Of a stretch of DNA of 64,000 bases, positions 26,071 through 47,909 are shown piece by piece. Location: the NCBI GenBank assembly GCA_017640505.1, contig JAEPQO010000001.1:1752625-1816624 (forward strand), in the 5' to 3' direction. Source of the DNA: Rhodospirillales bacterium (GTDB lineage: Bacteria; Pseudomonadota; Alphaproteobacteria; Rhodospirillales; Casp-alpha2). Within the stretch, counting starts at the first letter, position 1. Each line of letters starts with the position of its first letter. The translations under genes were made by a program, and so were the position numbers. The notes beneath the pieces are model-generated. The model saw only the letters and a program-made list of their open reading frames with translations. It ran no database searches and had not been told where the DNA came from.

Positions 26071-26140
26071 CGTCACCCCGGCGCAAGCCGGGGTCCAGAA
26101 ATACCGTTGCTCTGGATCCCGGCTTGCGCCGGAATGACGG
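26071..26140. repeat. Extragenic palindrome family B, copy 1
   Basis: CGTCACCCCGGCGCAAGCCG and its near-complement CGGCTTGCGCCGGAATGACG form a long imperfect stem with a GTCCAG/CTGGAT inner stem. It lies after the SulP gene, convergent with cytochrome c'. This is the GTCATTCCGGC-type repeat widespread in alphaproteobacterial intergenic DNA. Confidence 0.85.
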
Positions 26141-44581: not shown

Positions 44582-44597
44582 AAACAAACGTTTGTTT
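44582..44597. promoter_or_regulatory. 16-bp perfect palindrome, probable TetR operator
   Basis: AAACAAACGTTTGTTT is a perfect inverted repeat of two 8-base arms. It ends 14 bases before the ATG of the TetR gene, the usual position for autoregulation. TetR-family regulators of acyl-CoA metabolism often bind CAAACG-type palindromes. The site would control the whole four-gene operon. Confidence 0.75.
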
Positions 44598-44611: not shown

Positions 44612-45238
44612 GTGGATGCCATGGACGGACAGGCAACTGTCGACAACGAGACATCGAAGCCACGCGTCAATAATCGCCGCCACGGCGTCCTCGACGCGGC
44701 CGCTTACCGTTTCCGCCGCCAGGGGTTCGCGGCGACGACGATGCGCGACATCGCCGCCGACGCCGGCATGCTCGCGGGTTCGCTCTATTACCATTTCAAA
44801 TCGAAGACGGCGCTTCTGATTGCCGTCCACGAGGAAGGCGTGCGCCGTATCGCCGATGCGGTCGATGCCGCCGTTGCCGCCGCCGACCCGGCTGACCCCT
44901 GGCAGCGACTGGAAAATGCGCTCGCCGCTCATCTGGCGAGTCTTCTCGACGGCGGTGATTACGCGCAGGTCGTGATCCGCGATCTGCCGGCAGACAAACC
45001 GGAACTGCGCGCGACGCTGATCGAACTGCGCGACGACTACGAGCAGCGCTTCCGCGTACTGGTCGATGCCCTGCCGCTCAGCCGGCCTGCCGATGCGGGG
45101 TGGGTGCGGCTGATGCTCTTGGGCGCCGCCAACTGGTCCAAGACATGGTACCGGCCGGACGGTGCCGGGCCGGCAGAAATCGCCGCCAATTTCGTTCGCA
45201 TTATCAAACACGGTGAAACATCGGGAACGACATCATGA
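44612..45238 (+). CDS. TetR/AcrR-family transcriptional regulator
   Basis: The 208-residue protein has the TetR N-terminal HTH (GVLDAAAYRFRRQGFAATTM, RDIAADAGMLAGSLYYHFKS, residues ~26-70) and a helical ligand domain. It is the first gene of the operon, and its stop overlaps the start of the B12-binding gene (ATGA), so it is co-expressed with the enzymes and probably represses the operon until an acyl-CoA ligand binds. Start 44612 gives MDAMDG; ATG 44621 is an alternative. The upstream palindrome is its likely site. Confidence 0.92.
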   Translation: MDAMDGQATVDNETSKPRVNNRRHGVLDAAAYRFRRQGFAATTMRDIAADAGMLAGSLYYHFKSKTALLIAVHEEGVRRIADAVDAAVAAADPADPWQRLENALAAHLASLLDGGDYAQVVIRDLPADKPELRATLIELRDDYEQRFRVLVDALPLSRPADAGWVRLMLLGAANWSKTWYRPDGAGPAEIAANFVRIIKHGETSGTTS

Positions 45239-45702
45239 ACACGACACAGGAAACGCACAGCCCGGTTATTCCGGCGGCCATCGCGGGCCTTGCCCGTCCG
45301 CCCAAGGTCATGGTGACCAAGATCGGCCTCGACGGTCACGATAGGGGTTCGCGCCTCGTCGCGTCGTTCCTGCGCGATGCGGGCATGGAGGTGATCTACA
45401 CCGGCCCCTGGCAGCAGGTCGAAACCGTCGTCAACCAGGCGGCACAGGAAGACGTCGACTGCATCGGCGTGTCGTCGCTGGCGACCGACCACCTGCTGGT
45501 GCCGAAACTGATGAAGGCGCTCAAGGCCGCCGGGCTCGACGACGTGATCGTGATCGTCGGCGGCATCGTGCCGGACGAGGACGAGAAAATGCTGATGGCC
45601 GAAGGCGTCGCCCGGGTGTTTCATCCGGGATGCTCGCAGCAGGACATCGTCGGCGGCATCGCCGACCTGATCGTCGAACGCCGCAAGACACTGGGAGAAT
45701 AA
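45235..45702 (+). CDS. B12-binding small subunit of an acyl-CoA mutase
   Basis: The 155-residue product is a stand-alone cobalamin-binding domain of the methylmalonyl-CoA mutase C-terminal type. The DxHxxG motif that supplies the lower-ligand histidine reads [10 protein letters not shown] (residues ~32-41), followed by [11 protein letters not shown] and [11 protein letters not shown], the other B12-contacting loops. Relatives IcmB and HcmB have about 136 residues; this one has an extra ~20-residue N-terminal tail. It pairs with the large subunit gene two bases downstream to form a split mutase. Confidence 0.93.
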
Positions 45703-45704
45703 GA

Positions 45705-47387
45705 ATGTCCGAGAATGGTAAGAACACGAAGATGGGACAGGACTTCGAAGCGGCGCGCGACACCTGGCGCGAGGCCTACGAAGGCCGGCTGCCGAACGAG
45801 AAGCCGCGCTTCAACCGCTCCGGCATCGAGGTCAAGCCGCTCTATACGCCCGAAGACTGGTCGCCCGACGACTACCTGCCCGATCTCGGTTTTCCGGGCG
45901 ATGCACCGTTCACACGCGGCATCTATCCGACCATGCACCGCGGCCGGTCGTGGACGCAGCGCCAGCTGATCGGTCTCGCCACGCCGGAAGACTACAACGC
46001 GCGCATGCGCCGCATCGTCGACAGTGGTGCCACCGCGCTCAGCATGATCCCCTGCAATTCGGTCTATCGCGGCTATGACATCGACGAGGTCGATATCGAA
46101 ATCCTCGGTACCTGCGGCACCACGATCAACACCATGGAAGACATGGAAACGTGCCTCGCAGGTGTGCCGATCGGCGACATGTCGGTGGCGTTGAACGACC
46201 CGTCGCCGTTTACGCTGCTGGCGTTCCTGCTGGGTGTCGCCAAGCGCCGTGACATTCCGTGGTCACGCATTTCCGGCACGTCGAACCAGAGCGATTACAT
46301 CTCGCACTATGTCGCCAACCACATGTTCTTCCGTCTTGCCCTCGACGGGGCCCGGCGCGTGTTCGTCGATCACGTGCAGTTCGCGAACGAACAGCTGCCG
46401 CGCTGGAACCCGGTCTCGGTCGTCGGTCAGCACATGCAGCAGTCCGGTGCGACCCCGGCCGAAGCAATGGCGTTCACGCTTGCGTCCGCGATCCAGTACG
46501 CCGAGGACTGCCAGGCGCGCGGCCTCGATGTCGATGCGTTCCTGCCGCGCTTTACGTTCTTCTTCGACATTTCCATCAGCTTCTTCGAGGAGATCGCCAA
46601 GTTCCGTGCCGGTCGCCGCATCTGGGCCCGGCTCGCGAAGGAACGCCTCGGCGCGACCGATCCGCGGGCATGGCGTTTCAAGTTCCATGCCCAGACGTCG
46701 GGCGTGGACCTGACGCGCCAGCAGCCGCTCAACAACATCGCGCGCACCACGGCGCAGGCGATCGCCGGTATTCTCGGCGGGCTGCAGTCGATGCACACCG
46801 ACGCCTACGACGAGGTGCTGTCGACACCGACCGAGGCGGCGGCCAAGATCGCCATCCAGACGCAGAACATCCTGCGCGAAGAAGCGGGCCTGACGGACGT
46901 CATCGATCCGCTCGGCGGGTCCTATTACGTCGAGGCGCTGACCGACCAGATGGAAGAAAAGATCATGGCCGCGTTCGACGAAATCGATGCCGCGGGCGGC
47001 ATGTTCCAGGCCGTCGCCAAGGGTCTCGTGCAGGAAAAACTCGGCGAGTCCTCGATGGCCTTCCAGCGCCGCGTCGAAAGCGGCGAACAGACGGTCGTCG
47101 GCGTCAACGCCTACCAGGACGACGAGGACGTGCCGGTGACGCCGCTGGAGCGTCCGTCCCGCGAAGCGATGGAGCAGCAGGTCGCCAAGCTCAAGACGTT
47201 CAAGGCCGAACGCTCCAACGCGGACGTCGAAAAAGCGCTCGACGCCATGGCGCGCGCCTGCGCCGACGAGAACGACAACGTCTTCCAGCGTCTTGTCGAG
47301 GCCGCCGAAGCCGGGGCCACGCATGGTGAAATGTGCGCCTGTCTGCGCCGCGAGCTGGGCTTCGGCCAGCCGCTGATCGCGGCCTGA
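45705..47387 (+). CDS. Acyl-CoA mutase large subunit, substrate unknown
   Basis: The 560-residue TIM-barrel protein is the size of IcmA/HcmA (about 562-566) and lacks a B12 domain. It has [17 protein letters not shown] (residues 74-90), FHAQTSG and [17 protein letters not shown], all typical of methylmalonyl-CoA mutase-family large subunits. Substrate-determining positions differ from characterised enzymes: Leu88 lies where MCM has Tyr, ICM Phe and HCM Ile. Residues SMIPC (113-117) replace SVAFD/STDFD, and Asn205 takes the place of the carboxylate-binding Arg (MCM) or Gln (ICM/HCM). It likely rearranges a different acyl-CoA. No MeaB-like chaperone gene is adjacent. ATG 45705 follows the small-subunit stop. 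Confidence 0.9.
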
Positions 47388-47392
47388 CGCCG

Positions 47393-47827
47393 ATGGATGC
47401 GAATTCGAACAAACGCGCGTGGGTCGAAAAGATGCTGGCCCGCGACCGGACGGCGGCCTTTCTGGGGGTCGAGGTCGTGGACGCGGCGCCGGGGCTGCTC
47501 GATCTTCGTATGACGGTGGCCGACGCGCACCTCAATTTCCTCAACTGGGGGCACGGCGGGATCATCTTCACGCTCGCCGATACCGCCTTCGGCATGGCGT
47601 CGAATACCTACGACAAGGTTTCCGTCGGCATCGACGCGCATATCGCGTACCTGTCCGGTGTCAGGGCGGGTGACGTGATCGAGGCCCGGGCGCGGGAGGT
47701 GTCCCGCACGCGCCGCAAGGCGGTCTACCGCGTCGACGTGGTCCGGCCCGCCGACGACACCGATATCGCGGCGTTCACCGGCACCGTGTTCGTGACCGAG
47801 CAAGACTTGGCCGAGCTGAATCTCTGA
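47393..47827 (+). CDS. PaaI-like hotdog-fold acyl-CoA thioesterase
   Basis: From ATG 47393 the product is 144 residues with the hotdog fold: FLGVEVVDAAPGLLDLRM, the central-helix motif NWGHGGIIFTLADTAFGMAS with the HGG..D-type catalytic acid, and a SVGIDAHIAYLSGVRAGD strand. It resembles PaaI, which hydrolyses aromatic or hydroxylated acyl-CoA. It starts five bases after the mutase stop and is the last gene of the operon. It probably removes a dead-end or side-product CoA ester, or releases the product. Confidence 0.9.
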   Translation: MDANSNKRAWVEKMLARDRTAAFLGVEVVDAAPGLLDLRMTVADAHLNFLNWGHGGIIFTLADTAFGMASNTYDKVSVGIDAHIAYLSGVRAGDVIEARAREVSRTRRKAVYRVDVVRPADDTDIAAFTGTVFVTEQDLAELNL

Positions 47828-47839
47828 ACAGAAAGAGAG

Positions 47840-47909
47840 CGTCATTCCGGCGAAGGCCGGAATCCAGAGAGCCATAAGCACTGGACCCCGGCCTCCGCCG
47901 GGGTGACGG
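47840..47909. repeat. Extragenic palindrome family B, copy 2
   Basis: CGTCATTCCGGCGAAGGCCG and CGGCCTCCGCCGGGGTGACG form a long imperfect stem with an inner TCCAG/CTGGA. It lies between the thioesterase and the convergent EamA gene. Confidence 0.85.

Follow-up and report, generated by a model that had tools for sequence, protein, structure and literature searches.

A compact four-gene operon that quite probably encodes a split adenosylcobalamin-dependent acyl-CoA mutase of the pivalyl-CoA/isovaleryl-CoA mutase (PCM) type was analyzed in a 64,000-nucleotide stretch of DNA, hereafter the window, from a Rhodospirillales bacterium (GTDB lineage Casp-alpha2; GenBank assembly GCA_017640505.1, contig JAEPQO010000001.1, positions 1,752,625 to 1,816,624 of the forward strand). 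The operon, all on the plus strand, encodes a TetR-family regulator, a small cobalamin-binding subunit, a large subunit, and a PaaI-like hotdog thioesterase (Table 1). The tetR and small-subunit genes overlap by 4 bases, and gaps of 2 and 5 bases precede the large-subunit and PaaI genes, respectively. Pfam assigns the mutase to separate large (PF01642) and small (PF02310) subunits, the architecture required of the PCM type, and the small subunit retains the DGHDRG motif. The large subunit scores far below the NCBIfam equivalog cut-offs for methylmalonyl-CoA mutase (MCM; 449 vs 876 bits) and IcmF (233 vs 1500 bits). An earlier reading of this DNA from its letters alone (the sequence-only reading) had described this gene set and spacing, with Leu88, Ile115, and Asn205 at specificity-setting positions and the segment SMIPC, all of which are borne out by the gene calls and alignment.

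Table 1. Features of the mutase operon, in window coordinates
Feature	Position	Strand	Description
Perfect palindrome AAACAAACGTTTGTTT	44582..44597	.	16 bases; likely operator of the TetR protein
TetR-family regulator	44612..45238	+	PF00440 (TetR_N) and PF17932 (TetR_C_24); start GTG 44612 or in-frame ATG 44621
Small cobalamin-binding subunit	45235..45702	+	155 aa; B12-binding (PF02310); DGHDRG at residues 33-38
Large subunit, probable PCM-type acyl-CoA mutase	45705..47387	+	560 aa; PF01642 (MM_CoA_mutase), 572.7 bits
Leu88 codon	45966..45968	+	aligned with MCM Tyr89, HCM Ile90, IcmF Phe598
SMIPC, residues 113-117	46041..46055	+	SVAFD/STDFD in MCM/HCM
TSNQSD, residues 192-197	46278..46295	+	TIQND in MCM, shorter by one residue
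Asn205 codon	46317..46319	+	aligned with MCM Arg207, HCM Gln208, IcmF Gln742
Gln242 codon	46428..46430	+	aligned with MCM Tyr243; adjoins conserved His243 (MCM His244)
PaaI-like hotdog thioesterase	47393..47827	+	144 aa; 4HBT; TIGR02286 108.9 bits, cut-off 118.9

Active site and structural model

The large subunit was aligned with MCM (numbered as in P. shermanii), 2-hydroxyisobutyryl-CoA mutase (HCM), and IcmF. The alignment's chain numbers are offset by 11 (HCM), 1 (5req), and 20 (IcmF), and positions were assigned from motifs and these offsets; the IcmF offset was taken as a tag, and the IcmF positions were counted by hand. Structure 5req is a Y89F mutant according to its title and has Phe in the Tyr89 column. 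Besides Leu88 and Asn205, which align as given in Table 1, Ile115 aligns with HCM Asp117, and the alignment adds substitutions beyond those already described, namely MCM Tyr243 to Gln242, TIQND to TSNQSD, AFD to IPC, and Glu of the LKE motif to His201. His243 is retained and is equivalent to MCM His244, a catalytic residue. Both the carboxylate-binding Arg and the hydroxyl-binding Asp are missing, and the residues are unlike those of MCM, HCM, or isobutyryl-CoA mutase (ICM), as the sequence-only reading had held.

HCM (PDB 4r3u) resembles the window protein in its separate large subunit, its fold, and its equivalent of His243, and is the best solved-structure match by sequence (397.7 bits). 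It differs in carrying Ile90, Asp117, and Gln208 in place of Leu88, Ile115, and Asn205, in sharing 37% identity, and in belonging to a separate clade; HCM identity was rejected on these residues and the tree. MCM (PDB 2xij, 1req) also shares the fold and the His243 equivalent, whereas Tyr89, Arg207, and Tyr243 are all replaced in the window protein, which is 35% identical to the human enzyme and again lies in a separate clade. MCM identity was rejected on the change of Tyr89/Arg207 to Leu88/Asn205 and on the tree.

IcmF (PDB 4xc6, 5cjw), unlike the window protein, has a fused G-protein domain, and Phe598 and Gln742 (Phe80 and Gln198 in ICM) stand where the window clade has Leu and Asn; ICM/IcmF identity was rejected on these residues. 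The likeness lies in the substrates, as known IcmF accepts the two esters proposed here: passages of two papers describe its interconversion of pivalyl- and isovaleryl-CoA (PMC10481361, PMC9974510). IcmF structures with both esters exist, as judged from PDB titles. The IcmF variant F598A is reported to have gained pivalyl activity.

An AlphaFold model of the large subunit (mean pLDDT 69.9, with residues 64-91 under 50) best overlays HCM 4r3u (TM 0.74, root-mean-square deviation 17.6), then MCM and IcmF. This loose overlay supports the fold and is too coarse for side chains, least of all for Leu88, which lies in the low-confidence stretch. Ile115, the TSNQSD loop, and Gln242 are modeled at or just past predicted strand ends, as expected for the substrate cavity of the barrel.

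A widely distributed clade with a conserved residue set

Among 297 genomes of the window's order, searched with a cut at E 1e-100, 21 (the window's own genome included) encode a protein 63-100% identical to the window's, with two of these matches partial; the following match among those listed reaches 41% or less. Six plasmid records match at 62-67%, with the best other at 42.7% among 40 listed of 427 matching records. A scan of the genome_contigs collection yielded 417 pattern matches, 286 of which encode a relative; the best 80 of the 286, 62-88% identical, were kept, and their record titles, mostly of metagenome-assembled genomes (MAGs), span several phyla.

The residue comparison covers 109 rows, including the window protein, repeats of the same locus, and the 80 rows fetched with the patterns VGQHMQQ and GTSNQSD[YF], which do not count for Gln242 and TSNQSD. 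Leu88 is present in all 107 readable rows, Asn205 in 108 of 109 (L101 has Leu), and Gln242 in 109 of 109, with Ile (97), Leu (11), or Cys (1) at position 115. The 29 rows that were not pattern-fetched agree: Leu88 in 28 of 28 readable, Asn205 and Gln242 in 29 of 29 each, and Ile, Leu, and Cys at position 115 in 23, 5, and 1, respectively. The residue set as an oddity of one sequence was thus rejected, and chance is excluded because these residues are conserved clade-wide.

The first tree was built from 131 rows reduced to 110 by dropping L027, L028, L140_1, L142_1, L137, and rows identical over the compared stretch; the second (108 rows) omitted the ethylmalonyl-CoA mutase-like (ECM-like) and IcmF rows. 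Both trees keep the clade, whose 89 rows are split off by a branch of support 100, and both carry a warning of meeting long branches. Six MCM-type and six HCM-type rows fall outside the clade in both; these labels follow residues and placement, with two MCM members and one HCM member backed by structures. The ECM-like and IcmF rows sit on long branches, and their placement is unsure. One of them, L003 from the window's genome, labeled ECM-like from its shape, forms a long branch outside the clade and has Tyr and Arg at the key positions. As judged from these alignments and trees, the unusual putative active site marks a large bacterial clade and is not unique to the window protein.

Two observations concern other plasmid-borne mutases. 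Three haloarchaeal plasmids (L145, L146, L147) encode mutases of ~565 residues with Phe and Gln at two key positions, which form a separate group beside HCM. The plasmid of Sphingobium sp. YC-XJ3 carries the operon twice (L142, 10914-14624 and 21251-24962); transposase genes separate the two copies, which points to recent duplication.

The Xanthobacter relative

The best plasmid match is Xaut_5043 of Xanthobacter autotrophicus Py2, which is 67% identical and lies within the window protein's clade (support 100). Its residues at 88, 115, 205, and 242 are Leu, Leu, Asn, and Gln, so that the key substrate-facing residues Leu88, Asn205, and Gln242 are identical in the two proteins. The Xanthobacter gene row runs from Xaut_5045 (TetR) through 5044 (small subunit), 5043 (large subunit), 5042 (MeaB), and 5041 (PaaI) to ligase and ABC transporter genes; NCBIfam supports MeaB (TIGR00750, 292.6 bits) and PaaI (129.4 bits, cut-off 118.9). 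We take Xaut_5043/5044 to be the pivalyl-CoA/isovaleryl-CoA mutase of strain Py2, a native enzyme of this activity having reportedly been characterized from that organism by Kitanishi, Cracan, and Banerjee in 2015 (J Biol Chem).

The window operon is like this system in its split subunits, upstream TetR, downstream PaaI, and Leu/Asn/Gln at positions 88, 205, and 242; it differs in having Ile rather than Leu at position 115 and in being without the MeaB, acyl-CoA ligase, and ABC transporter genes found in Xanthobacter. The sequence-only reading had concluded that the specificity residues match no characterized enzyme, from a list that omitted pivalyl-CoA mutase. With Xaut_5043 in the clade, 67% identical and with Leu/Leu/Asn at the key positions, that conclusion is most likely wrong. 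The phylogeny places the large subunit with a characterized enzyme only if Xaut_5043 is indeed that enzyme, and on the same proviso the novelty of an orphan specificity falls because Xaut_5043/5044 is then PCM.

The Xanthobacter plasmid pXAUT01 also carries, ~20 kb away, a second split mutase row of HCM type (Xaut_5018-5021; L144:4612-9139). Its PF01642 protein, Xaut_5021, was rejected as a PCM candidate, as it groups with HCM and has HCM residues.

The chaperone MeaB and the thioesterase

No MeaB gene adjoins the operon in the window. Elsewhere in the window's genome are three MeaB-domain genes, one of them within IcmF, and one cobalamin adenosyltransferase gene. The two free-standing MeaB proteins are 50% and 38% identical to Xaut_5042, and the former is nearer (61%) to the MeaB of an HCM-type operon.

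Across 101 loci, which include near-copies and the same genome from two collections, MeaB and PaaI were scored as present when one tblastn stretch spanned 40% or more of the query. MeaB is present in 65: it occurs without PaaI in 32, fused to PaaI in one open frame in 23, and apart from it in 10, while 27 loci have PaaI only and 9 have neither. Restricting the set to the 88 loci whose downstream sequence spans 1.9 kb or more gives corresponding counts of 24, 23, 10, 22, and 9. MeaB is somewhat undercounted, as L077 was scored PaaI only, yet two shorter MeaB pieces match there. Among loci with room, MeaB was found in 55 of 75 from genome_contigs, 6 of 6 plasmids, and 1 of 13 from the window's own order, the main source of the PaaI-only loci. 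The absence of an adjacent MeaB, as described in the sequence-only reading, thus applies to the window and to 12 of 13 own-order loci with room and not to most genome_contigs loci or to the plasmids; as a trait of the whole system it was rejected, given the many loci with MeaB among the 88. Of the Xanthobacter layout TetR-small-large-MeaB-PaaI, the MeaB element is the one missing from the window, and the layout does not define the enzyme.

The 23 MeaB-PaaI fusions (for example L072, L087, L120, and L140:13688-14875) are encoded by a gene adjoining the mutase. By record title, 19 are betaproteobacterial, 2 come from gammaproteobacterial MAGs, and 2 from MAGs titled Propionibacterium and Desulfovibrionaceae, which group among the Betaproteobacteria in the tree. 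In Diaphorobacter sp. HDW4B, the fused protein, annotated as MeaB only, matches PF03308 at 18-242 and PF03061 at 300-370, and the PF03308 match stops at model position 234 of 273, compared with 257 and 269 in two unfused MeaB proteins. A limited literature search found no description of a MeaB-thioesterase fusion. In passages of one paper, IcmF is treated as a notable exception to free-standing chaperones (PMC10481361). Both this fusion and the presence of PaaI as a separate gene in the window operon suggest that the thioesterase is part of the mutase system. The idea that the thioesterase handles the mutase product found no direct support; the fusion hints instead at a role linked to the mutase and its chaperone as a pair.

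Upstream palindrome and neighboring genes

The palindrome AAACAAACGTTTGTTT lies 14 bases before the GTG start of tetR and, with as many as 2 mismatches allowed, is matched once in the window and never in 100 shuffles. The genome (98.55% complete) contains the 12-base core once, both strands listing the same palindrome. Related palindromes with AAAC-like and GTTT-like arms precede tetR in 39 of 68 distinct upstream regions and are missing from 29; over 100 shuffles, the controls averaged 0.25 and never exceeded 2, under shuffling that keeps base composition only and a rule set after the sites had been seen. The TetR protein thus probably controls this operon alone. After the operon lies a GC-rich palindromic repeat (window 47842-47865), found again at 26114-26137 with 3 mismatches; across the genome, its pattern ATTCCNGCNNANGCNGGAAT matches 8 times forward and 11 times in reverse, with three places counted on both strands, and a reversed control gave none.

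On plasmids of Pseudosulfitobacter and Sulfitobacter, counted as one arrangement given large subunits 98.7% identical, the operon is followed by genes for a TetR protein, carboxyltransferase, crotonase, biotin carboxylase, and acyl-CoA dehydrogenase. From these gene families the cluster looks like a route from isovaleryl-CoA to 3-hydroxy-3-methylglutaryl-CoA (HMG-CoA), with roles that are putative; the carboxylase and dehydrogenase proteins stay below the cut-offs of all NCBIfam models. In a Ramlibacter MAG (L123), the opposite strand carries matches to carboxyltransferase, biotin carboxylase, and dehydrogenase within ~8 kb downstream of the operon. Such a set is also found in the window's genome, on a different contig; it comprises biotin carboxylase, crotonase, HMG-CoA lyase (460.9 bits, cut-off 246), a carboxyltransferase that shares 54% identity with its plasmid counterpart, and an acyl-CoA dehydrogenase (37% identical). 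This genome also encodes a canonical MCM, an ECM-like mutase, and IcmF. Neighboring branched-chain-type ABC transporter genes, two or more per locus, were seen at 6 of the 80 genome loci, 3 of the 6 plasmids, and 1 of the 15 loci from the window's order.

Discussion

Quaternary carbons block beta-oxidation. A PCM-type enzyme would circumvent this block by radical 1,2-migration of the CoA-carbonyl group, converting an acyl-CoA with a quaternary alpha-carbon, pivalyl-CoA or a close analogue, to a beta-branched one, isovaleryl-CoA or its analogue; this product would then be oxidized by enzymes of the leucine-degradation type, whose genes lie elsewhere in the genome. Leu88, Asn205, and Gln242 replace residues that are polar or aromatic in other mutases, in some cases ones that bind a carboxylate or hydroxyl group, and may thereby make room for methyl groups; the bulky aliphatic acyl group envisaged in the sequence-only reading is plausible. 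The TetR protein would regulate the operon through AAACAAACGTTTGTTT and be released by an acyl-CoA, and the thioesterase probably releases CoA when esters are wrong or have stalled. A MeaB gene of the operon may have been lost in the window's family, with one of the two free-standing MeaB proteins probably serving in its place. Rearrangements of this kind were previously proposed for pivalic acid degradation, as stated in part of one paper (PMC2847961).

Several points weigh against assignment to PCM. The literature searched yielded no text on the native enzyme or naming Xaut_5043/5044, whose activity is thus presumed; the papers found with pivalyl-CoA mention it for IcmF or only in the title of a reference. 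Xaut_5043 lies in a different subclade from the window protein in the 110-row tree, and 67% identity does not fix the substrate; the two differ at position 115 (Ile/Leu) and at 118 (Asn/Cys), and the flanking letters differ too (SLLPCCSGFRGID in Xaut_5043). Mcc-type neighbors occur in only 3 of 101 loci, and neither an acyl-CoA ligase gene nor a leucine-type gene adjoins the operon in the window. A relative of the acyl-CoA synthetase Xaut_5039 lies near 15 of 80 genome loci, 3 of 6 plasmid loci, and 0 of 15 own-order loci. Neither of the two acyl-CoA dehydrogenases tested (plasmid and window genome) reaches any NCBIfam cut-off, the plasmid one scoring 32.4 bits against 545 for the isovaleryl-CoA dehydrogenase model.

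That the clade acts on larger quaternary-carbon acyl-CoAs, such as those of gem-dimethyl acids from terpenoids or of naphthenic acids, with pivalyl-CoA as one accepted substrate, is a lesser but real possibility that overlaps the PCM assignment and does not exclude it. It would fit the wide spread (286 pattern-matching stretches encoding a relative, with several phyla among the best 80), the acyl-CoA synthetase, branched-chain-type ABC transporter, acyl-CoA dehydrogenase, thiolase, and reductase genes near some loci, and a pocket that the smaller residues at 88 and 205 would widen. There is, however, no direct evidence on substrate size, neighborhoods vary between subclades, and the active-site residues vary too little to indicate substrates specific to a subclade. 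It seems unlikely that the enzyme catalyzes a truly new reaction different from that of PCM, as the sequence-only reading proposed: the window protein and Xaut_5043 do fall in different subclades, differ at a third of their residues, and have Ile and Leu at position 115, but they share most of the clade-marking substrate-facing residues, and the operon partners are the same except for MeaB. We regard it as highly improbable that an MCM, HCM, ICM, or ethylmalonyl-CoA mutase was mis-scored by alignment. The fold and the match to HCM 4r3u would allow this, whereas the clade stands apart from MCM and HCM with support 100, equivalents of Arg207, Asp117, and Tyr243 are all missing, and other genes of the window's genome already supply a canonical MCM, an ECM-like protein, and IcmF.

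On the PCM assignment, which we favor, the analysis corrects the claim of an orphan specificity; what it adds is the size of the clade, the occasional link to a leucine-type cluster, the MeaB-PaaI fusion, and the likely dedicated operator. A broader and more speculative proposal, which we offer with some doubt, is that the clade represents a widespread, little-noticed bacterial quaternary-carbon route, isomerizing 2,2-dimethylacyl-CoAs from natural gem-dimethyl compounds. PaaI would then be the built-in CoA-rescue partner of the mutase-chaperone pair, fused in many Betaproteobacteria to MeaB in place of part of its C-terminal region, and this would give B12 chaperones a second fused form, alongside IcmF. 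Through the MeaB-PaaI fusion of the relatives, a connection of cofactor loading with ester hydrolysis becomes testable. The operon probably contributes to bacterial use of acids whose quaternary carbon makes them hard to degrade and, if it is of the PCM type, marks bacteria able to attack such carbons, in many uncultured lineages.

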